A stretch of DNA of 64,000 bases, taken from the NCBI GenBank assembly GCA_029863605.1, contig JAOTVB010000002.1, positions 62,001 through 126,000 of the forward strand, given 5' to 3'. Shown piece by piece: positions 16,185 to 49,355 of this stretch (positions are counted from its first letter, which is position 1; every line of letters begins with the position of its first letter). Below the pieces are notes generated by a model. It worked only from the letters and a program-made list of their open reading frames with translations. It was not told the DNA's origin and searched no databases. The position numbers and the translations under genes are program-made. This DNA comes from Myxococcales bacterium (GTDB taxonomy: Bacteria > Myxococcota_A > Polyangia > Polyangiales > Houyiibacteriaceae).

Positions 16185-18011
16185 TCACTTCCGGACGAAG
16201 CGGATGCTGTCGAGGTAGATGGTAACATCCGGGCGCCGCCCCCTGAGGGTCACCACGAAGCCTGTCTTGATGCTCGATAGGTCGAGTTTCTTCAGGCGAA
16301 TGCGGTAGCGTCGCCACTCCTTCGTCAGGCGAATGTCCTCGACGGTGGTCTTGCCCGAATCGGGGTGTACCTTGTCCTGGCCGAGGAGACCAACGCCGAT
16401 GTTGATCTTCTCGACGCCGTATTCTCCACGGGCCCACAGCTCCAGGTGTGTCGCTCCGGTGAGATCGTAGCCGCCTTCCTGATCGCCCCAATTGTTGGCG
16501 GGGTGCTGCCACGCAACGCCGACCCAGGTGCCGACCTCGCCGACGAAGTGCATTTTGATGCAGGCGTTGCCTTCATAGGGGTTGCCATAATGGTCGCCGT
16601 CCAGGATCAGCGACTCGATCGCGCCCATCCAACCCGAGGGGGCCCAAGGCATCCCCTCGAAACCATCCCGGTAGACGTAGAAGGGCATGGGCGTGCGCAC
16701 CTTGCCTTTCACCAACAGCGGCACGTTCGCCGTCGCTGCACCGCCCGCCGCATCATAAGCGTAGAAGAACAACCGATACGGCCCGGGATCTCTCGGCATG
16801 CGCACCCGTGTGCCATTGACGTGACCTTCGAGGACTGCGCCCTCCACCTCAGGTGGCATGGGCCGGAAGTCACCGCCGGTCGTGTATTCACCGGCCTCGC
16901 GGCGCAGCACCCAACGCACGCGGATTGCAGCACCTTCGGGATCGGCAACGACGGCACGCACGCGGACCTTGTCACCCGGATCCAACTGCGGTTCACCCTC
17001 GATGACCAATGGCTCCACCGTGGGCGCAAGGTTCGTCGGGCGACGGCCGGACCAGAGCTCGGTCATGACATCGACCGCCCCGAGCCGGGCGCCATCATCC
17101 AAGAACATCCCGTACCAGGTCGGGGTGGCCTCCGTCTTGAAGCCCCAGACAAAAACGTACGAACCTAGGGCGAGACCCGGAGCGGCGATCACGCCACTCT
17201 CGTAGCTGCGCCGGTAAAACTCCGACTTCTCCGTGCTCGTCGGCTCGACCGGCGCGCCCCAGTCGTTCTTCGGGATCTCCCACACCCCGGGCGGCCCGAA
17301 CTCGGTGAGCACATAGGGCTTGGTCGCACCGCCAGCGCGGTAGCGCTCGGCCACAGACAGCGCACCGCCGTAGGAGTTGATGCCGTGAATGTCGATCGCC
17401 GGGCAGCGCTTGTGCACGCCGTCGATGCGCCCGCCGCCGAGCTCGGCGGTGACGGTCATGGTCGGGTGGAGCGGGTCGAGCTTCTTCACCATGGCGGCGA
17501 TGTCGTTCACCGCCGTCCAGATGGCCGGATTATCGCCTGAGCCGAAGCCCTCCATCTCGTTGCCGATGCCCCAGAGGAGGACCGCAGGATGGTCTTTGTA
17601 GCGCAGCACGGTCTGGCGGGCGCGTTCCAGTTGGTCACTGACCTGGGTCTCGTTGCTGTAGTCGAAACCGTGGCGCTCGTGGCCGAGCCAGATGCCCACC
17701 GTCACCGACAGGCCGAGGGCGTGCGCCGCGTCGAGACGGGCGTCGATGTCGTCAGCCCCCCAGGTGCGCACCGAGTTCGCGCCCGCGGCCGCCAGCCGCT
17801 TCAACGACGCATCCCCGCCGGCGCCACGAATGAAATACGGCTCACCGCCACGCAACAGCTCCCAGCCCTGCTCTGTTTGGCGCAGTTCCACCGGGATGGC
17901 CTTCGCCCGGGCGGCCGAGGGCCAGAGCGCCAGGCAGGCGGATGACAGGACGAGCGCGTGCGCGATCGTGTGCAGCAGATGGCTATGTGTCGCTGGTTTG
18001 TTTGCGCTCAT
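16185..18011 (-). CDS. secreted TIM-barrel glycoside hydrolase (GH2/GH5-like) with C-terminal carbohydrate-binding-like domain
   Basis: The 608-residue product begins with a signal peptide (hydrophobic ALVLSSACLALW, cleavage near AARA). A beta/alpha barrel of clan GH-A follows at about 40-350, with the acid/base Glu in WGIGNEMEG and the probable nucleophile Glu in YVLTEFGPPG. Barrel strands such as NSVRTWGAD and DIHGINSYGG are visible. An Ig/PKD-like region (about 375-460) and a beta-sandwich domain (about 480-605) end the protein. The substrate is probably a beta-glucan or similar polymer, but the family cannot be fixed by eye. ATG 18011 gives the signal peptide directly; the frame upstream runs through the tRNA fragment and is not coding. 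Confidence 0.8.
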   Translation of the reverse strand: MSANKPATHSHLLHTIAHALVLSSACLALWPSAARAKAIPVELRQTEQGWELLRGGEPYFIRGAGGDASLKRLAAAGANSVRTWGADDIDARLDAAHALGLSVTVGIWLGHERHGFDYSNETQVSDQLERARQTVLRYKDHPAVLLWGIGNEMEGFGSGDNPAIWTAVNDIAAMVKKLDPLHPTMTVTAELGGGRIDGVHKRCPAIDIHGINSYGGALSVAERYRAGGATKPYVLTEFGPPGVWEIPKNDWGAPVEPTSTEKSEFYRRSYESGVIAAPGLALGSYVFVWGFKTEATPTWYGMFLDDGARLGAVDVMTELWSGRRPTNLAPTVEPLVIEGEPQLDPGDKVRVRAVVADPEGAAIRVRWVLRREAGEYTTGGDFRPMPPEVEGAVLEGHVNGTRVRMPRDPGPYRLFFYAYDAAGGAATANVPLLVKGKVRTPMPFYVYRDGFEGMPWAPSGWMGAIESLILDGDHYGNPYEGNACIKMHFVGEVGTWVGVAWQHPANNWGDQEGGYDLTGATHLELWARGEYGVEKINIGVGLLGQDKVHPDSGKTTVEDIRLTKEWRRYRIRLKKLDLSSIKTGFVVTLRGRRPDVTIYLDSIRFVRK

Positions 18012-18056
18012 ACGTGCGGTCCTAGTATCACCCCTTGTTCGCGGCGCGGGAACTAG

Positions 18057-18094
18057 CATTAACGCAAACCTTCCGGCGTGCCGGGGTGGCGGAA
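18057..18094 (+). repeat. direct repeat, copy B (truncated tRNA-Leu 5' end)
   Basis: This 38-nt stretch repeats 13347-13385 apart from one missing T. It ends after the first 15 tRNA bases (GCCGGGGTGGCGGAA). The following bases do not continue the tRNA, so no functional tRNA can form. An AAAATCG right at the break also occurs in the anticodon arm of the intact gene, which may mean an internal deletion. Confidence 0.8.
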
Positions 18095-18221
18095 AATCGA
18101 CCCGACTTGATCCGGTCTCAGCTCTCGATGCCAGCGTCAATGCGAACGCTGAGTCCACGGCTTGGCCTAGGAATGCAGGTCCGATTTGGGCCTCCGCCGC
18201 ATCGTTCTGCATACTGAGGGC

Positions 18222-26964: not shown

Positions 26965-27885
26965 CTACTGCATTCGCAGCCAGGCGGGCATGAACAGCAG
27001 CGCGAAAAGCGAAAGGGTTAACAAGCCCACGATGCGGCGCCGGGGGGAGAGGACAGAGTCCTCGGTGGGGGGATGGTCGGGCCCCGTAGCGCGGGTGAGG
27101 ATCCACAAGACGAACGCCCACACGAGCCACTGCAAACCGGCGCTTGCGTCGTAGATCAAACGGTCACCTCGCGCGCCCTCGAGGTAGGCCGGCAGGCCGT
27201 ACGCAATGCAGACGAGCAGCGCCAACGCCGGCAAGAACCGAATCACATAGCGAGAGATTTGGTCCTGACGTCGACCCCACAGCGCATAGGCCACATGGCC
27301 GCCGTCCAGCTGCCCGAATGGCAATAGGTTGATCATGGTGACCAAGAGGCCTGCCCAGCCTGCCAGTGCGGTTGGGGTCAACATGATGTCGTAGCCATCG
27401 GGGATCGGACCCTTGAGCGTGTAGAGAAGGCCGAGATAAAAAATCGACCGACCCTCGATCATGTAGTTTCCGTCGGGCAGCGGATCGATCGGCGAAGTCG
27501 CGATACCGTAAATTACGACTGGGATGGCCACGACCATTCCGGCAAGTGGGCCAGCCGCGCCGATGTCGAGCAGTGCGTTTCGCGATCGGATTCGCTCGCG
27601 GATCTGAATGACGGCGCCCATCGTGCCGAGTAGAAAAAAAGGGACCGGGATAAAATAGGGGAGTGAGACATCGACCCGATGGTACATCCCAGCAAAGAAA
27701 TGCCCGAACTCGTGGGCGAGCAGGATGCCCATCAGTGGGAGCGAGAACACCCACCCTGCGCCGAGCTCCTCGAGCGACGCAGGTACGTGACCGAGGACCA
27801 TTCCAGCTCCCACGTAGAAAGTCGACAGAAAGGTCAGCACCACCAGGACGAAGGGTAGACCCCACCGCGTCTTTCGCCGCTCCAC
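26965..27885 (-). CDS. site-2-type intramembrane metalloprotease (M50)
   Basis: The 306-residue integral membrane protein has the zinc motif HEFGH (about residue 58) in a hydrophobic helix and the third ligand in NLLPFGQLDGGH (about 195). Six to seven membrane segments are visible, and there is no PDZ or CBS domain. It resembles the bacterial/plant EGY-like S2P group that cleaves substrates within the membrane. The start is GTG 27885. It is divergent from the GH15 gene (56 nt gap) and upstream of a membrane-protein gene on the same strand. Substrates in other bacteria are anti-sigma factors or membrane-tethered regulators. Confidence 0.87.
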   Translation of the reverse strand: MERRKTRWGLPFVLVVLTFLSTFYVGAGMVLGHVPASLEELGAGWVFSLPLMGILLAHEFGHFFAGMYHRVDVSLPYFIPVPFFLLGTMGAVIQIRERIRSRNALLDIGAAGPLAGMVVAIPVVIYGIATSPIDPLPDGNYMIEGRSIFYLGLLYTLKGPIPDGYDIMLTPTALAGWAGLLVTMINLLPFGQLDGGHVAYALWGRRQDQISRYVIRFLPALALLVCIAYGLPAYLEGARGDRLIYDASAGLQWLVWAFVLWILTRATGPDHPPTEDSVLSPRRRIVGLLTLSLFALLFMPAWLRMQ

Positions 27886-27941
27886 CGAGGGCCTCTAGCA
27901 TGTGCGTTCTAAAGCGCACGATCTGCTATTCTCCTGGGCGC

Positions 27942-29843
27942 ATGGATCTCTACAGCGCCGCCAAGCGTCTCAAGCGGCCTTTCGTCTTCGCCGACGAGGC
28001 GTCGCGACAGGCTCTTTCGATCGCGGACCACGGCTTGATCGGCGACGGATTCTCCGCTGCACTGGTGCGGGCAGACGGCGCGATCGACTGGCTTTGTCTG
28101 CCTCGTTTCGACAGCCCGAGCGTGTTTGCGTCCCTGCTCGACGAACACAACGGCGGGTCGACTTCGATCACGCCCATCCAATATCCGTTCGAGAGTCTGC
28201 AGCGCTACGATCCCGGCACCAACGTGCTCGAGACCCTCTTTCAGATCGAGGGACACGGGACGCTTCGCCTCACCGATTACATGCCTTGGGCCGATGATCC
28301 GCGACTTGCCATCCATGAGGTTCATCGTCGAGTTCAGTGCGTCGAAGGCCAGGCAACAGTCAAAGTCGTGTTCGATCCTCGGTTCGACTACGGACGCAGC
28401 GAGACGACTTTCGACGTCGATGGGCGTTCTGCTCTCGCGAAAGGGGCGTTGGGCGAGAGGCTCGTGGCGGTGCTCGGGGGCGTCGGCAAGTGGGAGCCTC
28501 GGCACGAAGGCGGAGTCCAGGCCGTGTTTCGCTTGAAGGCCGGTGAACGCGGATGGGTGGTGATCAGCTGGAACGCTTCTGAGTCCGAGTCGATCTTGGC
28601 ATACCGGCCATTTCAGTTTCTCCGTACCACCCGCAATCGATGGCGCGATTGGTCGCGATCACTGGAATACGACGGGCCTTGGCGTCACCACGTCATTCGG
28701 TCGGCGCTCCTTCTCAAGCTCTTGATGTATGCACCGACCGGGGCGATGGTCGCGGCGCCCAGCACTTCGATCCCCGAGTGGATCGGCGGGGTCCGAAACT
28801 GGGACTACCGATACACATGGACGCGGGACACGGCCATGGCCGTCCGGGCTGCAAATCTCCTGGGTTGCGATCGAGAGGCGCGCGACTTCTTCCATTTCGT
28901 TCGAGACACGCTCGAGCGTGACCGAGATCTTCACATCATGTACGCGGTCGACGGCGGCCGTGTCCCAGACGAGGAAACTCTCGAGCACTTCGCCGGTTAC
29001 AAGGGCTCGCGTCCGGTTCGAATCGGCAACGGAGCGCGCGATCAACTCCAGCTCGACACCGCTGGAGCCTTGATGGACGCGGCTTATGTCTACGAAAGAG
29101 GCGGGGGTTATCTAACCGTACGAGGGTGGCGCCGGCTCAGAGAAGTCGTCCAGAACGTGGTCGCCACTTGGAAAGAGCCCGACCACGGGATTTGGGAGCC
29201 GCGGGGTGGCAAGCGTCACAACGTACATTCGAAATTGATGAGCTGGCTTGCTCTGCAGCGCGGCGCTGAGCTCGCGCCAATGTTTGGTGAACACCATCTG
29301 CAACGGCGTTGGCGGCGAGTGGCCGACGAGCTCCATGCCGAGCTATGTGCGCGCGGGCTGGATCGCACGGGACGCCGTTTCGTTGCCGCCTACGACCATG
29401 AGCATCCCGATGCATCGCTTCTGCTGCTTCCCATTCACGGTTTCCTGCCGCCAACCGACGACCGCGTGCTGCGCACCGTCGAGCGGATTCGGGCTGAGCT
29501 TAGCAACGGTTCCTTCATCTACCGGTACCGCACCGATGATGGCGTCGGAGGAGAAGAAGGGGCTTTCGTTCTGTGTGGGTTCTGGCTCGCCGAAGCGTTG
29601 GCCATGGCTGGCCAGGTGGATGAAGCGCAGGGTGTGTTCGTCGCCCATGCCGACGCGTCCAATCATTTGGGCCTGCTCGCGGAGCAGATTGAGCCCGCGT
29701 CGCATGCATTGCTCGGCAACTTTCCGCAGGCCTTTAGTCATCTCGGCTTGATCAACGCGGCAGCCAGGATCGATCTAGCGCTGCGGTTGCGAGACGAGGG
29801 GTCGCACCGCGTACCCGAGGTCGAGATCGGGCGTTCTTTGTGA
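27942..29843 (+). CDS. GH15-family glucoamylase/trehalase-like glycoside hydrolase
   Basis: The 633-residue cytosolic protein has no signal peptide. An N-terminal beta-sandwich (about 20-240) begins IADHGLIGDGFSAALVRADG. An (alpha/alpha)6 barrel follows, with VRNWDYRYTWTRDTAM near 290, a likely catalytic-acid region KEPDHGIWEPRGG near 415 and GGEEGAFVLCGFWLAEALA near 550. This layout is shared by bacterial glucoamylase-like and mycobacterial-type trehalase enzymes, so the substrate could be trehalose or maltodextrin. ATG 27942 is the first start with family similarity. Its TGA overlaps the GTG of the next gene. Confidence 0.88.
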   Translation: MDLYSAAKRLKRPFVFADEASRQALSIADHGLIGDGFSAALVRADGAIDWLCLPRFDSPSVFASLLDEHNGGSTSITPIQYPFESLQRYDPGTNVLETLFQIEGHGTLRLTDYMPWADDPRLAIHEVHRRVQCVEGQATVKVVFDPRFDYGRSETTFDVDGRSALAKGALGERLVAVLGGVGKWEPRHEGGVQAVFRLKAGERGWVVISWNASESESILAYRPFQFLRTTRNRWRDWSRSLEYDGPWRHHVIRSALLLKLLMYAPTGAMVAAPSTSIPEWIGGVRNWDYRYTWTRDTAMAVRAANLLGCDREARDFFHFVRDTLERDRDLHIMYAVDGGRVPDEETLEHFAGYKGSRPVRIGNGARDQLQLDTAGALMDAAYVYERGGGYLTVRGWRRLREVVQNVVATWKEPDHGIWEPRGGKRHNVHSKLMSWLALQRGAELAPMFGEHHLQRRWRRVADELHAELCARGLDRTGRRFVAAYDHEHPDASLLLLPIHGFLPPTDDRVLRTVERIRAELSNGSFIYRYRTDDGVGGEEGAFVLCGFWLAEALAMAGQVDEAQGVFVAHADASNHLGLLAEQIEPASHALLGNFPQAFSHLGLINAAARIDLALRLRDEGSHRVPEVEIGRSL

Positions 29844-30799
29844 CGTCATCGGCGGGGCAAGAGCCGCGCGCACTTCGCGTCGTTACCTCGGGATTCGGGG
29901 GGCTCACCTTGGCTCTTTCAGCGGCGACGGGGGCCGGCTTGTGGCTGACGCAAGAGGCCTGGAGCTTCTCATCAGTCGTCGTTTTCGTGCCGTTGGCTGC
30001 GGCTGGCGTCCTGCTCATGACGACCCTCGCGCGTTCAGCGACGCGATCCGATATTTCCCGTCAACTCGACGAGCCGACCATGCCGAGCCCGGATCACCCA
30101 AACCCGACCCCGATCTCGGTGCCACCCGACCCACAGGACCAGGTGGACTACCTGATGGCGCTTCGACACGAATTCCGGACTCCCTTGAACGCGGTGCTTG
30201 GTTTTTCCGACGTGCTTCTCGGGGGCATCGATGGGGAAATCAACGAGTCCCAGCAAGAGGATCTCGAGATCATTCGGGCATCGGGCCTCAAGCTCAGAGT
30301 CCTTCTCGACAGCGCTCTCGATCTATCGCAGCTCGCGACCCGGGATCTCAAGCTCGACATCGAGCCGGTCGACGGGCGGGACGTCGTCGAGCGCGCCGGC
30401 AATGAAGCCTTGCAACTCTGGGCAGGAAAACAGGGCGCGCGGGTTTCTGTTTCAGACGAGCCGTGCTTGGTCGCCACAGACGAGGCGCGTCTTCGACGAT
30501 GCATCGTGGTGCTCGCTGATTTTCTCGCAACAGACAACCGAGGCGCCTCGATCGAGATCGAGCTCGACCACTCGGAGAGTCGCCTCGTCGTGTCCGTAGC
30601 CGCGGTGCCCTCCGAGCGACTCACTCTCGACGCCCTGCCGACGCCGGCCGAGGTGCTCGCTGCCGAGGATCCCATGAAAGTCCGTCGTTGGCCCCTCGCC
30701 GTTACCTCGGAGGTGATCGCGCTCCATGGGGGGTCGCTCTACCACGGAGACGATCCTGCGCGGTTCGTCATTCGGCTGCCAATGGGCGTTGCGACATGA
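29840..30799 (+). CDS. membrane histidine-kinase-like protein with intact H-box and degenerate ATPase domain
   Basis: The 319-residue product has two N-terminal membrane helices (about 14-36 and 43-63), a proline-rich linker, and a HisKA helix with the phospho-acceptor His110 in MALRHEFRTPLNAVLGF. The region where HATPase_c should be lacks the usual motifs. The N-box reads CIVVLADFLATD without the key Asn, no D-x-G-x-G is seen, and the G2/F region is WPLAVTSEVIALHGG. It may be a pseudokinase whose His is phosphorylated by another protein. The GTG start overlaps the GH15 stop and the stop overlaps the next start, so three genes are coupled. Confidence 0.8.
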   Translation: MTSSAGQEPRALRVVTSGFGGLTLALSAATGAGLWLTQEAWSFSSVVVFVPLAAAGVLLMTTLARSATRSDISRQLDEPTMPSPDHPNPTPISVPPDPQDQVDYLMALRHEFRTPLNAVLGFSDVLLGGIDGEINESQQEDLEIIRASGLKLRVLLDSALDLSQLATRDLKLDIEPVDGRDVVERAGNEALQLWAGKQGARVSVSDEPCLVATDEARLRRCIVVLADFLATDNRGASIEIELDHSESRLVVSVAAVPSERLTLDALPTPAEVLAAEDPMKVRRWPLAVTSEVIALHGGSLYHGDDPARFVIRLPMGVAT

Positions 30800-31722
30800 A
30801 GCTTCGTGGGGTGGCGGTGCTGACGGCAGTGTACTTCGTCGCGGTGTGGATCCTGATGGCACAGGAGCACGCGTACCTCGGTGGGGTCTTGGTGTTCGTC
30901 GGGGCTCTGGTCGCCGGTATGCAGGTCGTACGCTCCCTAGAAGCGTTGCCGATTGGTTCCCCCGCACCCTCGGATGTCGTGCTTTCGGCCCCTTCGATTC
31001 AAGAGACCATAGAAACGCATGCGGCCGAGCCCGAGACGCCTGAGCGGCAGCGGGCACGGTTTCTCGGCGCGCTAGGGCACGAGCTCCGGAACCCGCTCAA
31101 TTCGGTCACCGGCTTTGCGGACATGTTGCTGAGCGGGGCGGATGGCGAGCTCAACTCGGAGCAGGAGCGGAGCGTGATTACCATCCGAGCTAGTGCCGAG
31201 CGGCTGTTGCGGTTGGTAGCCACCGTCGTCGATCAGGCGCGAGTTCGGGCAGGCACCTTGCGACTTCAGCAGCAGTGGGTCGCGCCCTCGGAGCTGGTGT
31301 CGGAAGCGACCAATTTCGTACGAACGCGAGCGGAAGGGAAATCGGTAATCGGTGATGTCGCAGATGCGCTGCCGCGGGTGTTCGTCGACCGTCACCGAAC
31401 GATCGATGCGCTGGTAGGCCTGGCTGTTCTCGTCATTCGTTCGTCCGGGACCGACGTCGCAATCCGCGTAGCCCCTCCTCGTCTCGACCAGGTAGGCAAG
31501 GATTTCGTTCAGTTTGACCTGATCACCCACCTCAAAGATTCGTCGGCGGACACGCTTTCGATTGTCGAACGCCTCGAACGACCGTCCGCGCGCACCGATG
31601 CGCTGGGATTGGAAGTGTCGGTCGCGAGAAGCATCGTCGAAGCCCAGGGGGGGCGTATTTGGACCGAGGCAGGGACGGCGGGGAGCCTCCGTGTGTGCAT
31701 GACGCTTCCCACTTCCGCGTGA
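30796..31722 (+). CDS. second histidine-kinase-like membrane protein, paralogue of the preceding one
   Basis: The 308-residue product starts at ATG 30796 (ATGA overlap). Two short membrane helices (about 5-21 and 26-42) precede a HisKA helix with His95 in GALGHELRNPLNSVTGFADM. The helix pair after it (LSGADGELNSEQ) matches the first protein's LGGIDGEINESQ, so the two arose by duplication. The ATPase region again lacks an N-box Asn (IDALVGLAVLVIRSSG) and a D-x-G-x-G; only DALGLEVSVARSIVEAQGG recalls the G2 box. It may form a heterodimer with the upstream protein. No response regulator lies beside it. Confidence 0.8.
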   Translation: MKLRGVAVLTAVYFVAVWILMAQEHAYLGGVLVFVGALVAGMQVVRSLEALPIGSPAPSDVVLSAPSIQETIETHAAEPETPERQRARFLGALGHELRNPLNSVTGFADMLLSGADGELNSEQERSVITIRASAERLLRLVATVVDQARVRAGTLRLQQQWVAPSELVSEATNFVRTRAEGKSVIGDVADALPRVFVDRHRTIDALVGLAVLVIRSSGTDVAIRVAPPRLDQVGKDFVQFDLITHLKDSSADTLSIVERLERPSARTDALGLEVSVARSIVEAQGGRIWTEAGTAGSLRVCMTLPTSA

Positions 31723-31767: not shown

Positions 31768-32604
31768 TTACTCGTCGGTTTCGAGGGCTTCGAGAACCGC
31801 GCGGTAAGCCTTGTTTCGCTTCCAGCCTGCTTCCGTTTGAAGTCTCTGCGTCATTTCCTTCGTCGAGAGGCCTTCGCGTTTCCAGTCGACCACTAGCGTG
31901 CCAACGTCGACGTCGTTTTCGACTGCCTCCCCCGATGCTCCTTCGATCACCAAGGTGATCTCTCCCTTTGCGGGGGCGGCTAGCGCAGCGCGGACTTCTT
32001 CGACCGTTCCTCGGATGGTCTGCTCGTGCACCTTCGTGAGCTCTCGGCAAAGAGCCAATCGCCGCCGGTCTTTCAACGCTTGCCCGAGGTCTTCCAGCGT
32101 TGCGTGGATTCGATAGGGCGACTCGAAGATGACGGTCGTGACTTGCGATCGCGAAATCCGAGACAGGGCTTCCACACGTTCGCGGCCGCTCTTCGGCAAA
32201 AACCCCTCGAACGTAAACCGGTGCATGGGAAGGCCCGCCACGCTCAACGCTGCCACCACCGCGCTCGGTCCCGGGATCGCCTCCACGACAACACCCGCCT
32301 CGGCAGCGCGCGACACTAGATACGCGCCCGGATCACTCACGACCGGAGTGCCAGCGTCGCTCACCAGCGCAAAGTAAGCGCCCGCCACCAGCTCTTCCAC
32401 GAGACGGTCGACTTTCGCGTCGTCCGTGTGCTCGTGGAACGAGCGGAGCGGCGTACGGATGCCATGCTTCGCGCAGAGGGTGCGCGTGTGGCGCGTGTCC
32501 TCAGCAAGAATGGCGTCGGCCTCCCGAAGTATGCGGAGCGCTCGAAGAGTGATGTCATCGAGGCATCCGATGGGGGTGGCCACAACCGATAAGCACCCGG
32601 TCAT
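31768..32604 (-). CDS. rsmI: 16S rRNA (cytidine1402-2'-O)-methyltransferase
   Basis: SAM-dependent tetrapyrrole-methylase-fold enzyme that 2'-O-methylates C1402 in the ribosomal P site. The 278-residue product shows LSVVATPIGCLDDITLRAL (GNL in many members is GCL here), EDTRHTRTL, SFHEHTD, LVSDAGTPVVSDPG, EAIPGPSAV and FEGFLPKSG, all in family order. Length and C-terminal helical extension are normal. It follows the RpoH-type gene by 43 nt on the same strand. Confidence 0.95.
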   Translation of the reverse strand: MTGCLSVVATPIGCLDDITLRALRILREADAILAEDTRHTRTLCAKHGIRTPLRSFHEHTDDAKVDRLVEELVAGAYFALVSDAGTPVVSDPGAYLVSRAAEAGVVVEAIPGPSAVVAALSVAGLPMHRFTFEGFLPKSGRERVEALSRISRSQVTTVIFESPYRIHATLEDLGQALKDRRRLALCRELTKVHEQTIRGTVEEVRAALAAPAKGEITLVIEGASGEAVENDVDVGTLVVDWKREGLSTKEMTQRLQTEAGWKRNKAYRAVLEALETDE

Positions 32605-33683: not shown

Positions 33684-34700
33684 TCAACGCTGTGATCTGG
33701 CCGTTGCGGCCGGTGCCTGGAACGCTTGTTTCCCCGCACCTTGAGGCCGGAGGCGCCCGGAGGCCGACCCGGTGATCTTGTATTGAAGCGATCCGTCGGG
33801 AGCCAAGGCGGCCTTGTAGGCGTCTCCCGTGGAGGCCAGCTCGATCATGGCGGCCATCTTCTGGCTGCGCGCTTTGTAGCTCTCCTCGATCTTGGCCTTG
33901 AGCATCAGGTTGAGCTGCGATCGGCTGATCGGTCGGGCGAGCTTGACGTTGCCGAGCGCATCGAGCTTCAGGTCTTTTCCGTCGGCTTTGAAGCTTTCGA
34001 TGTTGGCCGTCCCCTCCACGACCGTGGCTTGAACATTCAGATCGCCAGCGTCCGCTTGGTCGAGCGTGAGTCCGCCCCAGCCGGGAATGTCGAGCTTGGT
34101 CTTGCCATCGCCGATGCTCATGGCCTCGATCGTCAGCGTGACGCTTCCGTTGGATTCGCTGACCTCGCTGGGCATCGCGAAGGTGATCTCGCCGTCGACC
34201 TTGCCGGTTACGGGGATCTTGGTGAATCTTCGGAGTGCCAGGATCTGCTTGAGCTCGATATCCGAAACCTCCGCGTCGATCTCAAAGTTCTTTTCCCCGA
34301 TCGCGACGTCACCTTGAGCGTTCCCGCCAGCGAGCTCGGCGTCGAAGCTGAACGACTTGTTATCCGAGAGGGCCGACAGAATAGAAGCTCGCACCGTGAG
34401 CTCATCGAACACGACGTCGACGGCTGGTTCATCCCCTTTGGCCGGCAGGACCAGGCGCACCCCTTCCAGCGTCACGCCGCTCAGTCTCGAGGGGCTCAAA
34501 TCGATGATCTCGAGCCCATAGCCGCGCTCGCCGGCCTCTTCGACGAGTCGATCTCGCAGTCGCTCGTAGGGGAAAGTCCAATAGGCGAAGACAACGAAGC
34601 AGAACATGAAAAATACGGGGTACCCCGCCCACCTGAGCACCTTCCGCCATGAAACCTCGGGCAACTTCTCGGTCAATCTCTCCCAGGGAATGTCGACCAT
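33684..34700 (-). CDS. gspN: type II secretion system protein GspN
   Basis: Inner-membrane, periplasm-facing component, 338 residues. One N-terminal membrane helix (VFFMFCFVVFAYWTFPYE) is followed by a long beta-rich AsmA/GspN-like periplasmic domain (LSGVTLEGVRLVLP, VDVVFDELTVRASI, GLTLDQADAGDLNV). The C-terminus is low-complexity and basic. GspN is absent from many T2SS, but its place as last gene after gspL and gspM, 4 nt from gspM, supports the call. ATG 34700 is close to the gspM stop. Confidence 0.8.
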   Translation of the reverse strand: MVDIPWERLTEKLPEVSWRKVLRWAGYPVFFMFCFVVFAYWTFPYERLRDRLVEEAGERGYGLEIIDLSPSRLSGVTLEGVRLVLPAKGDEPAVDVVFDELTVRASILSALSDNKSFSFDAELAGGNAQGDVAIGEKNFEIDAEVSDIELKQILALRRFTKIPVTGKVDGEITFAMPSEVSESNGSVTLTIEAMSIGDGKTKLDIPGWGGLTLDQADAGDLNVQATVVEGTANIESFKADGKDLKLDALGNVKLARPISRSQLNLMLKAKIEESYKARSQKMAAMIELASTGDAYKAALAPDGSLQYKITGSASGRLRPQGAGKQAFQAPAATARSQR

Positions 34701-34703
34701 GGA

Positions 34704-35273
34704 CTACTCCTCCGCCTCGGAGGGGCCACCCTCACGATCGTAAGCATTGACCGCGAGCTTGGCGCTGTAGCTCTTTCGAAGCCGTCCGCCGTCCAGTTGA
34801 ATTCGCTCGATGGCGACTGGATAGGAGCTGTTCTTGATGTCCGCCAGCATGTCAATCAAGGGCCGAAGCTCCACGGTGGGCAAGGATACGCGAACCGAAC
34901 GACGGCTGTAGCCGCCCATGTCGAGCTTGGGCTGGTCGGTGATCGACAACCCGCTCACCCCGTATTGCTGGGCGCTTTCTTCGAGGAACCCACCAAGCGA
35001 TGGAGTCTTGCGGTTGTAGAGGCGGTCGACGGCACGCCGCTCGGCTTTCTGTTGTTCGAGGCGTGCCTCGGACCGATGGATGTCGCTGAGGACTTCGTTG
35101 ATGTCGACGTTCTCAGCCTCGATGTCTGAGATGCTTGCCAGCAGCAGGTACATCGGCAGGACGACCGCCATAGATGCAAAAACGGACCCCATGATGACGA
35201 GCAAGCGTCGTTCGCGTTGGTTCAGCGTATCGAACCAGCCGCGCAGATTGTCGAAGGCGTCGCCAAAAGCCAT
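34704..35273 (-). CDS. gspM: type II secretion system protein GspM
   Basis: Bitopic inner-membrane assembly-platform protein, 189 residues. A short cytosolic start (LNQRERRLLVIMGSV) and one membrane helix (FASMAVVLPMYLLLASI) are followed by a coiled-coil segment and a ferredoxin-like periplasmic domain (VSLPTVELRPLIDMLADI). It would dimerise with GspL and stabilise GspE at the membrane. The start lies 1 nt after the gspL stop. Confidence 0.85.
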   Translation of the reverse strand: MAFGDAFDNLRGWFDTLNQRERRLLVIMGSVFASMAVVLPMYLLLASISDIEAENVDINEVLSDIHRSEARLEQQKAERRAVDRLYNRKTPSLGGFLEESAQQYGVSGLSITDQPKLDMGGYSRRSVRVSLPTVELRPLIDMLADIKNSSYPVAIERIQLDGGRLRKSYSAKLAVNAYDREGGPSEAEE

Positions 35274-35274
35274 C

Positions 35275-36744
35275 TCAGTCTCCCTCAGCGGTGGTTGTGG
35301 GCCCGCTTGGGCAGTCGATCTTGACGACTACCTTATAGTCTTTGCGGTCCTCTGCTGCAGTCGAAATGGAGCCCTTTTCGGCCTCGGCGAAGCACCGATG
35401 ACTTTGGAGCTCGTCGACGATTCGATCGCGTTCAGCGATGGATCCCACCCTTCCTTGGATCTCGAACCGGCCGCTGTTGCCTTCGTCGTCGATCTCGATG
35501 AGAAGTCGGCGGGTGTCGTGTTGAATATCGGTTGGGATGCCCTCGGAGATCGCCTCCAACACGTCGTACGCGTCGAATCTGGGTAAAGGGTCGTCCACCC
35601 TTGGCCCGGCGGTGAGAAGCTCTCGCGCGTGCATGGCGCTCTGCGTTTCCTCCCCGAGAAGATCTGCGCTCACCGAGGCGAGTTTCTCCACGAGTTGCTC
35701 GTGCTCGGTCTTGGCAACCCGATAGCGAGCGAGCAGGGAGACACCGAACGAAAGCATGACGGCCGCCGCGCAAATCGCAATGAGGCGCAGGTTCTTGCGG
35801 ATCTGCCCCGCTCTAGCCTTCGAGGCGAACTCGCCTTGGCGGAGGTCGAGCTTCTTCTTTCGAATGGTCGCTCGCGCGGCCAGCGCTGCCGCCCGCGCGA
35901 ACTTCGGTGCGCTTTCGTCATCGGCGCCGGGTGCGGATGGTAAGGGAACGACGCCGCATTCGATGCCGAGTTGGCTCGAAAGCCATTGCCTGGCGCTCTC
36001 CATTGGAGCCGTTTCGCCGGACAGCAGGATTAGATTGGGCTCTTCGGAGCGCTGGGCTCGGTAACTTGCGAGCGTTCGCTGGAGCGACGACCCGAGCTGC
36101 TCGCGGCGCCCCGACTCGACCAGATTCATCCCTCCCGATACGGTACGTGCAAATGTGCACTCGCCCTCAGTGAGCACGCAGAAGTCGGTGTTCTCGGGTC
36201 CGACGTCGATCACTAGCAAAGTGCGATCTCGCATCGACTCCGGCAGCAGCGGCCCGAGGCCGTCGAAGGCAGACGCGCCGACCGCCAGCTCTTGGGGATT
36301 CACCCCAGCTGCTTGAAGCTCACGCAACCGGCTTGCGACCATTCCCTGGGGAACGGCGACCGCCATGATCTGAACGTTCGCAGCATCGCGGCCGACGATT
36401 TGATGATCGATGATCGCGTTTTCGATCTCGAATGGCAGCACGGATTCGAGCAAGCCGGGCAACACCTCGGCGACTTTCTTTTCGACTCCCGCGGGCAACT
36501 CGATCAAACGGAGGGAAGCCGACTGGCCGTCGAGCGCCGCGATGATCCGATCCGGGGCTCGCGAGCTTTCGCTGATGACCTGCCGTACCGCCGTTCGAAG
36601 CAGTTCGACTGCGGCCTCGGAATCGTTCGAGCTAGGGAGCGCGGCCTCGGCATAGCGCTCCATCTCGAACCCGCGCAGGGTCGTCCGCAAGAACGCCCCT
36701 CGGACGGCCCGCGGTGTCACTTCTAAACCAAGAACCAATGACAT
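35275..36744 (-). CDS. gspL: type II secretion system protein GspL (PilM-like)
   Basis: The 489-residue product has a cytosolic actin-like ATPase-fold domain (about 1-310; LEVTPRAVRGAFL, AALDGQSASLRLIELPAG, LLVIDVGPENTDFCVL), one membrane helix (about 325-345; LIAICAAAVMLSFGVSLL) and a ferredoxin-like periplasmic domain. It recruits the GspE ATPase and pairs with GspM. It starts 1 nt after gspK. Length is somewhat above the usual 380-400 owing to the linker. Confidence 0.88.
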   Translation of the reverse strand: MSLVLGLEVTPRAVRGAFLRTTLRGFEMERYAEAALPSSNDSEAAVELLRTAVRQVISESSRAPDRIIAALDGQSASLRLIELPAGVEKKVAEVLPGLLESVLPFEIENAIIDHQIVGRDAANVQIMAVAVPQGMVASRLRELQAAGVNPQELAVGASAFDGLGPLLPESMRDRTLLVIDVGPENTDFCVLTEGECTFARTVSGGMNLVESGRREQLGSSLQRTLASYRAQRSEEPNLILLSGETAPMESARQWLSSQLGIECGVVPLPSAPGADDESAPKFARAAALAARATIRKKKLDLRQGEFASKARAGQIRKNLRLIAICAAAVMLSFGVSLLARYRVAKTEHEQLVEKLASVSADLLGEETQSAMHARELLTAGPRVDDPLPRFDAYDVLEAISEGIPTDIQHDTRRLLIEIDDEGNSGRFEIQGRVGSIAERDRIVDELQSHRCFAEAEKGSISTAAEDRKDYKVVVKIDCPSGPTTTAEGD

Positions 36745-36745
36745 C

Positions 36746-38098
36746 TCAATTCACCCGATAGTAGTGGAAAACCCCCAAGCCCGGCATCCGTCCGGCATTG
36801 GGTGGTGGTGGAACCCATCGTTCGTGGAAGTTGACGACAGACTCGATACGCACCTGGGAGTTTCCAACCTGTCCGGTCGCCACGATGGTGAAAATCCGAG
36901 CCGCCGTCGCGAAAGTACGCCCAAGCACCTCGCGTTGCGCTTCGGTGAGCTCGACTGGAACGAAAAGAAGCTCGCTCTCCTCGCCGAGAAAACCCTGGAG
37001 CATTCCATACAGGTCTTTGGATCCGCTCTTGCCTTCGATGAAGCCGATGAAGTCTGCAGGCTGCGTGAAGAGGGGAATCGGAATCAGCATTCGCACGGTA
37101 CTGAGGATCTGCGTGAACTTGATCGCCTCGAGGGGGTCGGCGCAAAGTGTAGTTTCGGGAACCTCTCCGCAGAGGCGCGCGAGCAACACCTGAGGGTTGG
37201 CCTCGTTGACGTTCACCAGGCCGGAAGCGTAGATCGTGACAATCCTGGACTCGGGGTCGTTCGGAACCGGTTCGACGAAGGTCGCCCAAAAATCGTCACT
37301 GAAGCCGCGGACCAGTCGCAACTCCTGGATCGAGTCGAATGGGGCATTCTTGTTGCGGTACGAGTCCCCGTATAGTTGATAGATCGAGTCATCCTCTGTG
37401 CCAGTGCCCCCAGTGCGGGTCGTCGCGGCTCCTGGGTCGAAGTCGGTTCGCTGGATGTCGCGGTCCCACCAGTCGATGACGGCAGAAACGACGTCCTGTC
37501 GGGTGGTGATGTTGCCGTTTTCATCTTGGTTGGAGAATAGGAAATCGTACGGGTTGTCCGGTTGGTAACCACCAGTGAGCGAGAACAGTTGCACTGCGAC
37601 GCTGTTGCGTGCCCGTTCGCCATCGAGGAAAAGAGGATCATTCAAGTTAATCTTTCCGTTCTCGCTGACCACCACAATGTTGCAGGTCCCCGGGATTCCG
37701 TCGAAACCCGTCGTGTCGCCAAAGTCGACCCCGAGCTGGGTGAGCGTGTCTCGCTGGTCCTCCGGCGTGCAAAACGGCGACAAGATTGCATTCGCAAAAT
37801 CCCACACCGGAAGCTGTGGCGCAGCACGGCCGGTGGCCGCTTGATAGAGCGGGTTGACGAAGCGACGGATCTCCGGCTCCTTCGCGGTGAGCAGCCTCGT
37901 CAGGTTCGTTGCGCTTTTCGCCAAGTACTCTGCTTGGAGCGCGTCGCGTTGGGCCGTCGAGACTGCAAACGCGGTGCCCGTTGTCTGGTGCATGTCCGCG
38001 AGCATCACCGCAAGAATCGCCACCGTGGTGATGGCGACGATGAGAGCGACCCCTTCCTCGGAGCTCTTTGGGCGTCTGTTCGTAACTTGCGATGTCAT
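36746..38098 (-). CDS. gspK: type II secretion minor pseudopilin GspK
   Basis: Large minor pseudopilin at the tip of the pseudopilus, 450 residues. The N-terminal hydrophobic helix EEGVALIVAITTVAILAVML follows a Gly suited to prepilin peptidase cleavage (EEG-VALI), and as usual for GspK the +5 Glu is absent. A long alpha-helical insertion domain follows, including DLYGMLQGF-like parts. ATG 38098 overlaps the gspJ stop (ATGA). Confidence 0.88.
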   Translation of the reverse strand: MTSQVTNRRPKSSEEGVALIVAITTVAILAVMLADMHQTTGTAFAVSTAQRDALQAEYLAKSATNLTRLLTAKEPEIRRFVNPLYQAATGRAAPQLPVWDFANAILSPFCTPEDQRDTLTQLGVDFGDTTGFDGIPGTCNIVVVSENGKINLNDPLFLDGERARNSVAVQLFSLTGGYQPDNPYDFLFSNQDENGNITTRQDVVSAVIDWWDRDIQRTDFDPGAATTRTGGTGTEDDSIYQLYGDSYRNKNAPFDSIQELRLVRGFSDDFWATFVEPVPNDPESRIVTIYASGLVNVNEANPQVLLARLCGEVPETTLCADPLEAIKFTQILSTVRMLIPIPLFTQPADFIGFIEGKSGSKDLYGMLQGFLGEESELLFVPVELTEAQREVLGRTFATAARIFTIVATGQVGNSQVRIESVVNFHERWVPPPPNAGRMPGLGVFHYYRVN

Positions 38099-38778
38099 GG
38101 GTTGTAGTTTGCGTGGTTGAGTGCGTAGTTGATCGGGATCGAGATCCGAGTGCCGAACGACTGGGTCTTTCCGGATCTATGTGGATCTTTGACGGTGAGC
38201 CGTACTCGCACCTGAGAGGGCAAGCGATTCGGCTGTGCGAATTGATCGTCGGTAGCCCAGCTTTCGACCCACTCGCTCAGCACCGGGTCGAAGTACTCGA
38301 TGTTGAATTCCTCGACCCCCTTCACCAAGATCTGCGACTTTCCTCCTCGCCTCGGGTCCTCGTCAATTCGGTTTTGCTCGCGGCGTGCGAGAACGCGCTC
38401 ACCCGGCTCATCGGGATCCTCGGTCACGAAATAGCTGATCTCGTTCTGGTCGGATTCATGGGAGTTGCGGTAGAGCCGGCGGTGAGAAAAAGACGTGAAA
38501 TCGAGCCGATCGTCTTGGCCGCGGTCGGTACCGACGAAGGCGGTCCGGACGGTTTGGAGATCGGGTGAAGGATTTACGTGCGTCGACACAAACGCCATCG
38601 TGACCTCGCGAACGATTCTCTCGAGGGCCATGTGAACGGTTCGGTAGTGGTCCACATCGGACTCGACCCGTGCCTTGTTCAAGGCAGTCTGGGCAAATCC
38701 GCCGTAGATCATCGTCCCGACGAGCGCGAGGATCGTCACCGCGAGAATGATCTCGAGCAATGTGAACCCTCGCTTCAT
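38095..38778 (-). CDS. gspJ: type II secretion minor pseudopilin GspJ
   Basis: The 227-residue product begins MKRGFTLLEIILAVTILALV, a canonical class III signal with cleavage after Gly4 and Glu at mature position 5. The globular part contains the GspJ-like RRLYRNSHESDQNEISYF segment. Start ATG 38778 has a good GAGGAGG upstream and overlaps the gspI stop (ATGA). It would complex with GspI and GspK at the pseudopilus tip. Confidence 0.92.
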   Translation of the reverse strand: MKRGFTLLEIILAVTILALVGTMIYGGFAQTALNKARVESDVDHYRTVHMALERIVREVTMAFVSTHVNPSPDLQTVRTAFVGTDRGQDDRLDFTSFSHRRLYRNSHESDQNEISYFVTEDPDEPGERVLARREQNRIDEDPRRGGKSQILVKGVEEFNIEYFDPVLSEWVESWATDDQFAQPNRLPSQVRVRLTVKDPHRSGKTQSFGTRISIPINYALNHANYNP

Positions 38779-39395
38779 GAGCCCTCCTCGGTCGTGGTGG
38801 GCTCTTCCGCTCGCGCGGGCTGCTCGGAAACCAGAAACTGGATGACGTCGAAGCCTCTGTCCTTGTCGCCCTCTTTCCATCTCACCGATACGGTCGCCCG
38901 CCGCACTTGCTCTTCCAAGAAAGGCTTGAGGATCGGAAACCCTATTTGCAGTGCCATCAGGGCTAGATTGCCGGCTTCACCTGCAACGACGGTTTCGGGG
39001 GTTCCGCCTTGCTCCGTAATCGACTCATAAGTTTCGTTCAAACGTTGATTGTTCCGGTCCTTTTCGCTCAGCTCGTCGTCTGAGTCCTCGTCCGCTCCGA
39101 GTTCGGGCAAGATGATCCGCTCGACGATCCAGCTGCACTCGTAACCTTCGACCGGCGCGTGCTCGCAGCAGTTGTCGTCGTCGGCCTTGTCCACCAACGG
39201 GAGGCCTTCGATCGCGATCACCTCTTCGATCTCACCCATCTTGCAGCGGGCCAAAGTCGTCGCGACGTTCTGCCGTTTGGCTCGCTGCGCGACATTGGAG
39301 GCCCCGACCTCGCTCGAAAAGATCGCCGTCAGGGCGAGACCGAGGATCGCGACCGCAATCATCACTTCGAGCAATGTGAATCCACGGAGGTTCAT
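38775..39395 (-). CDS. gspI: type II secretion minor pseudopilin GspI
   Basis: The 206-residue product starts MNLRGFTLLEVMIAVAILGL with the prepilin cleavage site and Glu5. At about 125 residues the usual GspI is shorter; here an acidic insertion (GADEDSDDELSEKDRN) and extra helices enlarge the globular domain, and an acidic tail ends the protein. The stop overlaps gspJ and the start overlaps the gspH stop. Confidence 0.88.
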   Translation of the reverse strand: MNLRGFTLLEVMIAVAILGLALTAIFSSEVGASNVAQRAKRQNVATTLARCKMGEIEEVIAIEGLPLVDKADDDNCCEHAPVEGYECSWIVERIILPELGADEDSDDELSEKDRNNQRLNETYESITEQGGTPETVVAGEAGNLALMALQIGFPILKPFLEEQVRRATVSVRWKEGDKDRGFDVIQFLVSEQPARAEEPTTTEEGS

Positions 39396-40084
39396 AGTGA
39401 ATCCCGGACTTCCCCTTCGTCATCGAGATCGGAAAGGGGTTCGTAGGCATAGGGATAGATGCGTGCGTTTCCGGTAAGCGGATGGATTTCGACGCTGTAG
39501 ACGGTATCGCTTCCGTCTTTCAGCTGAACGACCGTGTGCTCGGTGACTCCACCAGGAAAGAAATACACGCCGCCTTCGCCCTCGGTGCGTGGCTGAGAGT
39601 CCCTCGGCGTCACGAGCGCGTGAATCGCGATCCCGTCACCGATGGGCTGGGGTTGGTAGCGCTTGATCGGTTCCCCTTCAAGCGTCGTGATCGGTGAGAA
39701 CTCCGAGATCGGTGGAGGCTCGCGATCGAGTGGTTTTTCGATTCGCAGTCGCGCCAGCTCCCAGGGATCGACCGCCCCGCCGGTGTCGGATTCGAGCTGC
39801 TCGTGGTTGGCGATCGTCACGGGCGCCTCTGTCTCTTCGACCGCCATAGTGTTTTTCTCGAAGTCGAACTGAAGCCGGGTCGTAGTTCCGTGTGTGACCG
39901 AGCGGCTGTATGCGTACTGCGCAGCGCTCATCACTCTGAACGATGCCGATCGCAGTCGCGTCCGCGTCAGCGCCCCCACCCCGAAGGATGCCCCAGAGAC
40001 CACCACGGCAATGATCGCTATCACCATGATCACTTCGATCAGGGTGAAGCCGCCGCGGGGTTGGGTTGGAGTGCGCTGGCGCAT
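39392..40084 (-). CDS. gspH: type II secretion minor pseudopilin GspH
   Basis: The 230-residue product carries the prepilin motif GGFTLIEVIMVIAIIAVVVS after a short basic leader (MRQRTPTQPR). The globular part is beta-rich with the family-type TRLQFDFEKNTMAVE and a glycine-rich FFPGGVTEHTVVQL end. ATG 40084 is chosen because it gives a short basic leader; the open frame extends further without sense. It lies 4 nt after gspG and overlaps the gspI start. Confidence 0.87.
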   Translation of the reverse strand: MRQRTPTQPRGGFTLIEVIMVIAIIAVVVSGASFGVGALTRTRLRSASFRVMSAAQYAYSRSVTHGTTTRLQFDFEKNTMAVEETEAPVTIANHEQLESDTGGAVDPWELARLRIEKPLDREPPPISEFSPITTLEGEPIKRYQPQPIGDGIAIHALVTPRDSQPRTEGEGGVYFFPGGVTEHTVVQLKDGSDTVYSVEIHPLTGNARIYPYAYEPLSDLDDEGEVRDSL

Positions 40085-40088
40085 GGCT

Positions 40089-40484
40089 CTAGATGTCGTC
40101 TTCCGTGTTGAACTGCAGATCCGGTCCGGCCGAGACGACGCCAACGTCTCCGCCCTCGCAAGTGATTTGGAACTCGGTATCCCAAGCGTCCGTGGTTCTC
40201 TTGGAGCCATCGAGGTACCTCTCGCTCACCAGCTCTTCGACCGTCGGACAGCCCCGCGGGTTGTCCGCCACATAGAGCATGACCGCTGACCGCAACGCCT
40301 GCGCATCGGCTTTCGTGCTCTTGATCCGCGCTTTCCCCAGCTGCGGCAAAACCGCCACTGCAACGCCGGTAACCATCATTGCGAGGATGGTAATGACGAT
40401 CATGATCTCGATGAGCGTAAAGCCTTCGCGTCGCCTCCGTCGTCCGAGTCGCTGCTGTCGGCGTGTGTCGATCGTGTCCGGCAT
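40089..40484 (-). CDS. gspG: type II secretion major pseudopilin GspG
   Basis: Main pseudopilus subunit, 131 residues before processing. After a 21-residue, very basic leader (RLGRRRRREG) comes GFTLIEIMIVITILAMMVTG with cleavage before Phe and Glu5. The C-terminal domain has the GspG pattern ADAQALRSAVMLYVADN, CPTVEELV and the end SAGPDLQFNTEDDI. Start ATG 40484 has GGGAGG at 40489-40494. ATG 40505, overlapping the upstream stop as ATGA, is an alternative adding seven residues. Confidence 0.92.
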   Translation of the reverse strand: MPDTIDTRRQQRLGRRRRREGFTLIEIMIVITILAMMVTGVAVAVLPQLGKARIKSTKADAQALRSAVMLYVADNPRGCPTVEELVSERYLDGSKRTTDAWDTEFQITCEGGDVGVVSAGPDLQFNTEDDI

Positions 40485-40488
40485 GGAG

Positions 40489-40494
40489 CCTCCC
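40489..40494 (-). promoter_or_regulatory. ribosome binding site for gspG
   Basis: GGGAGG sits 4 nt before ATG 40484, favouring it over ATG 40505. High pseudopilin demand fits a strong site. Confidence 0.6.
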
Positions 40495-40501
40495 GTTTGC
40501 G

Positions 40502-40924
40502 TCATTGAATGTTGTCGTCTTGCAGAAGCGAGCCGCTCGGGCCCGCAGAGATCACTTCGGCTTGTTCTTCGAAATAACCGGGGCATCGAACAGACAGGGG
40601 CCGGCCCCAACCGTCCTTCGGCATCGAATCGAGATAGTGTTTCTGAGAGCGGGGGGGATGAAGCAGCTCCGCGTTGGAGCTTGGGCATCGGCCCATGTCC
40701 GCCCGAAACCGGTCGATCGCTTGCTTCAATTGGGCGATCGCCACCTGAGTGTCGCGAACTCGTATGCGGTGGCGCGTGTACCGAATGAATCCCGCCCCTA
40801 CCACCACGATCAGCGCCAGCCCCAGCAGCGCTTGCCAACGCGGGTTGCTGAGAGCCCCTCGCCAACGCCCGCCCCGCCTTTCCCAAGGCAGCGAAATGCG
40901 TTCTCTTTTTCGCCGACGCGCCAA
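40502..40924 (-). CDS. GspG-like pseudopilin paralogue lacking a prepilin cleavage site
   Basis: The 140-residue product has a basic N-terminus, a single membrane helix (WQALLGLALIVVVGAGFIRY) and a C-terminal domain that parallels GspG: VAIAQLKQAIDRFRADMGRCPSSNAELL, DGWGRPLSVRCPG and the end ISAGPSGSLLQDDN. The G-F-T-L-x-E motif is absent, so prepilin peptidase should not process it. It would remain a bitopic membrane protein with the pseudopilin head in the periplasm. The start is TTG 40924 with GAGGGA before it. It sits between gspF and gspG. It may act as an assembly or capping factor; inference. Confidence 0.75.
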   Translation of the reverse strand: MARRRKRERISLPWERRGGRWRGALSNPRWQALLGLALIVVVGAGFIRYTRHRIRVRDTQVAIAQLKQAIDRFRADMGRCPSSNAELLHPPRSQKHYLDSMPKDGWGRPLSVRCPGYFEEQAEVISAGPSGSLLQDDNIQ

Positions 40925-40933
40925 AACAGTCCC

Positions 40934-42157
40934 TCATTGAATCATCTCGTTGAGCTGTAGCAGTGGCATGAGGATGGCAAAAGCAATGCCGCCAACGACG
41001 GCGCCCATGACCACGATGAGCAGTGGTTCGAGGATCGACGTCATCGCGCCCACGCGGACCTCGACCTGTTGGTCGTAGGCGTCCGCCACATGGATGAGCA
41101 TTTCCTCGAGCTGACCCGACTGTTCGCCTACCGCGATCATATGGGTGACGATTGGCGGAAAGCGGTCCCCCTCCCGGAGGGGCCTAGCAATTCCTTCTCC
41201 CTCGCGAACGCTTTCCCGAGCGTTTTCGACCACCCGCATCAGCTCGGTGTTGCCAAGCACGTTGCGGGTGATGTCCATCGCGGTGAGAACCGGCACCCCA
41301 CTGGCGAGCAAGGTTGCCAAGGTTCGGGAAAAACGAGTCACGGCGACCATCGTCAACAGAGGCCCAAAGAGGGGAACTTCGAGGACGAAGATGTCCCACT
41401 TCTTGCGACCCTCCTCGGTGTTGCGCCAGCGCCGAAACCAGTAGATACCGCCTGCGAGCAGAGCTCCAAGCAACCACCAGTAGTTGCTGAACAAGTTGCT
41501 GACCCAGATCAGCAAGCTCGTGTACCAAGGCAGTGACTGGTTGAAGTTCTCGAAGATCGCGGTGACCTTGGGCACGACGACGGACATCATGAGAAACAAG
41601 ATCAAAACCACGACGACCGCCATCACGATCGGGTAAGCGAGCGCACCGCGGACCTTACTTTGGAGCCGCGTCTGATCGTCCAAGAAATCTGCGAGCCGTG
41701 CCAGCACCTCTTCGAGCGTTCCGGATGCTTCGCCGGCCGCGACCATGTTCACGTAAAGCGTCGGAAAGATCTTGGGGTGCGCTTTCATCGCGTCGGCTAG
41801 GTTCGCGCCCTCGTTGACCTGGTTGCGGGTATCGGTGAAAGCCGTCTTGAGCTCGGGGTGATCGAGCTGATCGATGAGAGCGCTCAACGCTTGAACCAGC
41901 GGCACCCCTGAACGCAAGAGGACCGACAGTTGCCGAGTCGCGATCCCCACATCCAAGGTCGTGACCCTGCGAAACAATTTTCCGAAGTCGATGTCTCGAG
42001 CGGCCTTCCTGACAGCCTCGGACTGTTCGAGGATCTCGGTGGCCAAGATCCCGTCCCGCTTCAAAACGTTGCGTAGAGCCTTGGCGCTGTCCGCGTCGCG
42101 GACTCCCTTGACCGACTTGCCTTTCGCATCGAGACCTCTGTACGCGTAGACCGCCAT
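40934..42157 (-). CDS. gspF: type II secretion inner-membrane platform protein GspF
   Basis: Polytopic platform protein of 407 residues with two repeated T2SSF domains. The first is near 70-195 (LSVLLRSGVPLVQALSAL, FPTLYVNMVAAGEASGTLEEVL) and the second near 270-395 (LATLLASGVPVLTAMDI, MIAVGEQSGQLEEML). Three membrane helices are visible (VVVLILFLMMSVVVP, a YWWLLGALLAGGIYW segment, and LLIVVMGAVVGGIAFAIL). It connects the GspE motor to the pseudopilus. It starts 3 nt after gspE. Confidence 0.95.
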   Translation of the reverse strand: MAVYAYRGLDAKGKSVKGVRDADSAKALRNVLKRDGILATEILEQSEAVRKAARDIDFGKLFRRVTTLDVGIATRQLSVLLRSGVPLVQALSALIDQLDHPELKTAFTDTRNQVNEGANLADAMKAHPKIFPTLYVNMVAAGEASGTLEEVLARLADFLDDQTRLQSKVRGALAYPIVMAVVVVLILFLMMSVVVPKVTAIFENFNQSLPWYTSLLIWVSNLFSNYWWLLGALLAGGIYWFRRWRNTEEGRKKWDIFVLEVPLFGPLLTMVAVTRFSRTLATLLASGVPVLTAMDITRNVLGNTELMRVVENARESVREGEGIARPLREGDRFPPIVTHMIAVGEQSGQLEEMLIHVADAYDQQVEVRVGAMTSILEPLLIVVMGAVVGGIAFAILMPLLQLNEMIQ

Positions 42158-42160
42158 CGC

Positions 42161-43933: not shown

Positions 43934-43936
43934 CGG

Positions 43937-46678: not shown

Positions 46679-46712
46679 GATGATTTCCCGCCTCGGATTG
46701 CCTGCAGTCGCA

Positions 46713-49196: not shown

Positions 49197-49220
49197 GCGA
49201 GACTCTCTGGCAACCAGTGT

Positions 49221-49233
49221 TGACACAATGTCA
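49221..49233. promoter_or_regulatory. short palindrome in the regulator leader
   Basis: TGACA-CAA-TGTCA, 25 nt before the regulator ATG. A possible sigma-70 promoter lies upstream (- strand CTCACA, 17-nt spacer, TACAAT at 49276-49281). The palindrome would then be within the leader and could be an autoregulatory site. Confidence 0.3.
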
Positions 49234-49355
49234 GCAAATGACAAGTCGTCTGCGTTCATTGTTGCCGGGTAAACCATTGTAATTATTCGTGTTTCTGGTG
49301 TGAGCGGCCATGCAGCCGGCTCGCGTCCGGTCAACGGTGCAATCCGCGGGCCAGC

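Follow-up and report, generated by a model that had tools for sequence, protein, structure and literature searches.

What can two neighbouring sensor kinases do that have both kept the phospho-acceptor histidine and have both lost the ATPase motifs? This question is raised by HK1 and HK2, two adjacent genes in the window, i.e. the whole stretch of 64,000 nucleotides analysed here (Table 1). The reading favoured in the following, with a probability of about one half, is that the two proteins would form a membrane-bound DHp phosphotransferase and/or response-regulator phosphatase, for which another kinase would be the phosphoryl source. The stop codon of HK1 and the start codon of HK2 share an ATGA overlap, and the GTG start of HK1 overlaps the stop codon of the preceding GH15 gene. 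From these overlaps at both junctions, GH15, HK1 and HK2 look translationally coupled.

Table 1. Features of the window discussed in the text; positions are counted from its first nucleotide.
Feature	Position	Strand	Remarks
675-aa protein	16185..18212	-	
GH15 gene (glucoamylase/trehalase-like)	27843..29843	+	upstream, overlaps HK1 start
HK1, membrane-anchored pseudo-histidine kinase	29840..30799	+	319 aa, GTG start
HK1 H-box codons	30167..30190	+	HEFRTPLN, His110
HK2, membrane-anchored pseudo-histidine kinase	30796..31722	+	308 aa, ATG start
HK2 H-box codons	31078..31101	+	HELRNPLN, His95
RsmI-like methyltransferase gene	31768..32604	-	convergent, bounds the pair, conserved in the genus
Type II secretion cluster	33684..47681	-	
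NtrC-type response regulator	47838..49334	-	

Both proteins have the same domain order, with N-terminal helices followed by HisKA and, at the C-terminus, a region derived from an ATPase domain. Hydrophobic membrane anchors at both N-termini are supported by hydropathy as well as by the helices of the AlphaFold models. In a Pfam profile search, HisKA (PF00512) is matched with E-values of 3e-11 by HK1 and 2.1e-14 by HK2. For HATPase_c (PF02518), the same search returns no match in HK1 up to E=10 and a C-terminal similarity in HK2 that stays below threshold (E 0.087; 13.7 bits at a cut-off of 26.4), while sampled relatives score at about 1e-27 for HK1 and about 1e-12 for HK2. Among the 16 genomes of the same genus in which both genes are readable, the N-box Asn position is occupied by F/L in HK1 and by L in HK2, and the first glycine of DxGxG is replaced by S and by L/I, respectively. 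G2 has disappeared from HK1 with a deletion spanning the ATP-lid/G2 region, and it reads DALGxEV in HK2 (DALGLEV in the window). The initial annotation, which had recognized H-box helices and membrane anchors as well as the loss of N-box Asn and DxGxG in both proteins by eye, is thus confirmed in these respects, and a working G2 has to be added to the losses. Judged by these motifs, the pair has DHp domains with a phospho-acceptor histidine, lacks an HATPase_c domain with N-box Asn, DxGxG and G2, and is not a functional histidine kinase.

The acceptor side is conserved in the same 16 genomes. The histidine and the proline of the H-box are present in 16/16 sequences of both proteins, the residue after the histidine is E in every HK1 sequence and in 15 of the HK2 sequences (D once), and position His+4 is always T in HK1 and always N in HK2. 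HK1 therefore reads HExxT throughout and HK2 reads HExxN in 15 cases and HDxxN in one, which corresponds to E/DxxT/N, the phosphatase motif of HisKA proteins (PMC11502775). Outside the genus, T or N occurs at His+4 of HK2 in none of the 54 sequences scored (S in 38, A in 8, G in 7, L in 1).

The pair is present in 17 of 19 same-genus genomes, one of these copies being cut by a contig end, and its order and synteny are the same across the genus where flanks were compared. A frameshift or assembly artefact is excluded, as the reading frames are intact in 16 genomes, two of which are single-contig assemblies. From the H-box onward, dN/dS in nine genome pairs is 0.10-0.22 for HK1, with the lowest values in the DHp domain, and 0.03-0.07 for HK2, which indicates purifying selection on both genes. 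Compared with relatives in the family, identity amounts to 45-58% in the H-box domain and 18-31% in the ATPase-derived domain.

For the origin of the pair, 85 genomes of myxobacterial relatives were sampled across the class; they were drawn from larger groups, and many are probably metagenome-assembled. The same tandem pair is found in many of the sampled families across the order and the class, as overlapping adjacent genes with HK1 preceding HK2. In the gene tree, HK1 and HK2 fall into two separate clades (split support 0.999), within which the genus clades are monophyletic. Because of these two clean clades, HK1 and HK2 are regarded as old paralogues that separated before the class radiated, and a recent duplication in the window is excluded. 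Their H-box domains are 44% identical, their ATPase-derived domains 18%. The description of the genes as a tandem duplication, which the initial annotation had given, is accordingly right for tandem paralogues of an ancient event and wrong if a recent one is meant.

Four states of the pair can be distinguished by four alignment columns, namely the histidine and three ATPase residues. Both proteins are intact in 7 genomes, and in 49 genomes, one of them with a gene fusion, HK1 is intact and HK2 is ATPase-dead. In 8 genomes of one family, an HK1 with intact N-box, DxGxG and G2 but without the histidine is paired with an HK2 that retains only the histidine (loci L215-L222, corresponding to G151, G228, G200, G189, G233, G159, G167 and G175). 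The histidine of these HK1 proteins is replaced by A, R, K, L, V, V, V and Q in six genera, and among 14 genomes searched in this family it is lost in 8 of the 8 that hold this HK1. The fourth state, with both ATPases dead and both histidines kept, comprises 18 genomes: 16 of the window genus as well as G065 and G040 of another family (L223 and L224). Two further members of the latter family, G057 and G069 (L225 and L226), lie on contigs that are cut; the ATPase region of their HK1 is dead, and the histidine is retained wherever it is visible. In G023 only HK2 is readable. Across the class, the histidine of HK2 is kept in 85/85 cases.

The pair of the window genus sits on a very long stem branch in the gene tree. 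Its double-dead HK1 groups next to that of G033, the natural HK1-HK2 fusion (597 aa, two H-boxes, L042:4832-6625), with a support of 0.81 for the full length and 0.91 for the DHp domain only. This sister placement is possibly a result of long-branch attraction. Synteny argues for descent within the family: GH15 is the recurrent upstream neighbour of the pair there and also directly precedes it in three genomes of other genera (G022, G025 and G031), so that the common GH15-HK1-HK2 order supports vertical descent. Since other genera of the family have an intact HK1, the double-dead state of the two families is most simply explained by two separate events, although the gene tree leaves both options.

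The reciprocal losses in the relatives suggest what the pair once did. An HK1 that keeps its ATPase and loses its histidine next to an HK2 that has only the histidine is difficult to account for if HK1 does not phosphorylate HK2, and the ancestral pair was thus most likely a trans-acting pair of kinase and acceptor. In this ancient two-gene kinase module, which probably was a heterodimer, the catalytic ATPase would have come from HK1 and the histidine that accepts the phosphoryl group from HK2. In the window genus, where the ATPase of HK1 has been lost as well, the pair should no longer be able to phosphorylate itself because the ATPase is dead on both sides. It is proposed that phosphoryl groups pass between the remaining membrane-held DHp module and a response regulator charged by another histidine kinase, and that HExxT of HK1 and HExxN of HK2 serve transmitter phosphatase activity. 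Phosphotransferase and/or phosphatase activity is favoured because the histidines and both motifs are kept, the asparagine of HK2 being specific to the genus. The suggestion of the initial annotation that the pair receives a phosphoryl group and cannot generate one is partly supported: it is consistent with the lost motifs, with histidines that never vary, with purifying selection and with the states seen in the relatives. With about 31 HisKA and about 56 receiver domains above the cut-off, the genome encodes possible donors and acceptors. Similarity clustering and reading of the neighbouring genes revealed no recognizable response-regulator or receiver gene beside the pair, either in the genus of the window or in the relatives, so that the local gene neighbourhood does not indicate a partner. 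As a more tentative extension to the whole class, a heterodimeric module may have split the kinase chemistry between its subunits and then dropped the kinase half here and, apparently separately, in another family, leaving a two-subunit membrane phosphotransferase/phosphatase that is fed by an unrelated kinase.

Other explanations differ in whether the histidine is used at all and in whether ATP is still bound. AlphaFold predicts a full histidine-kinase fold with a Bergerat-like domain for both proteins (mean pLDDT of 80 and 83), so that structure prediction does not follow the loss of profile motifs noted above: the nucleotide contacts are gone while the predicted fold persists. Non-canonical nucleotide binding may therefore occur, and one or both proteins might allow the pair to phosphorylate itself, for which the weak C-terminal HATPase_c similarity of HK2 can also be cited. 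Such a cryptic kinase is nevertheless improbable, as both proteins lack N-box Asn, DxGxG and G2 in 16/16 genomes and the ATP-lid/G2 region of HK1 is deleted. A degenerating relic, in which the function of the module is lost in this lineage and both genes drift, has some points in its favour: the N-terminal sensor/HAMP regions are shorter than in the relatives, the stem branch is very long, and the full-length dN/dS of HK1 in one genome pair (0.27) is the highest of seven genes compared. HK1, being constrained less than HK2 and the neighbours, could be partially relaxed, whereas the value of HK2 (0.14) falls among those of the five neighbour genes (0.04-0.18). Drift of both genes is very improbable against the intact frames and synteny of 16 genomes, dN/dS values far below 1 in both genes, the invariant H-boxes and the similar double-dead state of another family. 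The motif loss is not decay at the sequence level, because both H-boxes are kept in 16 genomes at low dN/dS.

The main rival is a scaffold or kinase modulator that acts independently of the histidine. According to this explanation, the pair forms heterodimers with another kinase or controls it allosterically in the manner of DivL, of mechanism 3 of RetS or of ChrS, with its own histidines chemically unused. For ChrS and DivL, an action on other kinases that does not involve their own phosphorylation site has been published (PMC9491836). In a Foldseek search, in which many solved kinases match, both models have RetS (6dk7/6dk8) among their best matches, and that of HK1 also has DivL (4q20); RetS is also among the best sequence matches of both proteins. 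A structural role alone could explain why H-box residues are retained. What makes this rival doubtful is the pattern of retention, as histidine, proline and the T or N at His+4 are all found in 16/16 genomes, and the histidine of HK2 persists in every sampled genome even with a dead ATPase, whereas occasional loss would be expected in a pure scaffold; HK1 did lose it in one family.

Several characterized systems share a conserved DHp histidine and a degenerate ATPase domain with the window pair. In Pseudomonas aeruginosa, RetS lacks the G-boxes, does not autophosphorylate and has an HExxT-dependent receiver phosphatase activity (PMC5992135), but it is a single hybrid protein that carries two receiver domains and whose target kinase is known, whereas the window encodes two proteins without receivers. 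PhyT/PhyP of Sphingomonas melonis has a membrane anchor and a degenerate ATPase, and it moves phosphate between response regulators by way of a conserved histidine (PMC5898713). The window pair resembles PhyT in its membrane anchors, degenerate ATPase and conserved histidine; it differs in being a HisKA gene pair without an adjacent regulator, while PhyT has an HRxxN DHp and is a single gene beside phyR. ChpT is a kinase-derived dimeric phosphotransferase with an ATPase-like fold that does not bind ATP (PMC3433190), and Spo0B, as cited in PMC5898713, is another one whose ATPase-like domain does not phosphorylate its histidine. In contrast to these homodimers from single genes, the window pair consists of two membrane-anchored paralogues with a canonical HisKA H-box. 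FasB and FasC of group A Streptococcus are encoded by neighbouring genes and are proposed to form a heterodimer in which FasB phosphorylates the histidine of FasC, a proposed pseudokinase (PMC12675982). This comes close to the relatives with intact HK1 and dead HK2. FasB keeps its kinase, however, and the regulator FasA is encoded in the locus, whereas the window pair has neither an active kinase nor an adjacent regulator; the one active kinase domain of a FasBC-like heterodimer is found in HK1 of most relatives and is missing here. By inference from these analogies, the pair would work like RetS, PhyT and ChpT and would descend from something like FasBC.

In view of dead-ATPase proteins such as Spo0B, ChpT, PhyT and RetS and of the FasBC heterodimer, the suggestion of the initial annotation that the locus represents an undescribed phosphorelay is overstated. 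Another lead for comparison is the split kinase Rv0600c/Rv0601c of M. tuberculosis. Dead-ATPase phosphotransferases and kinase/pseudokinase pairs are already known; the novelty lies in the combination and in the series of evolutionary states. No description of the module was found among the titles and abstracts listed for tandem kinase pairs and for myxobacterial two-component surveys in the open-access literature. The relatives provide a natural series from both proteins intact via one dead and via a split of ATPase and acceptor to both dead with the acceptor kept. With these orthologues, the transition from a two-component kinase to a phosphotransferase/phosphatase could be studied stage by stage, and trans-phosphorylation between different sensor kinases would have a natural test. 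Annotations as "sensor histidine kinase" in these bacteria should be treated with caution, as they may cover proteins without kinase activity.

Downstream of the pair, reading of the neighbouring genes in a number of relatives points to candidate MoxR ATPase-, DUF58- and transglutaminase-like genes (L035, L038, L195, L199, L202, L203 and L207). Elsewhere in the window, the NtrC-type response regulator consists of a receiver and a sigma-54 activator. Besides those of HK1 and HK2, no HisKA domain was found in the 64,000 nucleotides, so that the kinase of this regulator is encoded elsewhere or was not recognized. The 675-aa protein has only a weak C-terminal match to glycosyl hydrolase family 2. 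In the type II secretion cluster, the secretin GspD, GspE and a GspC-like protein are assigned by Pfam and the other components by position.
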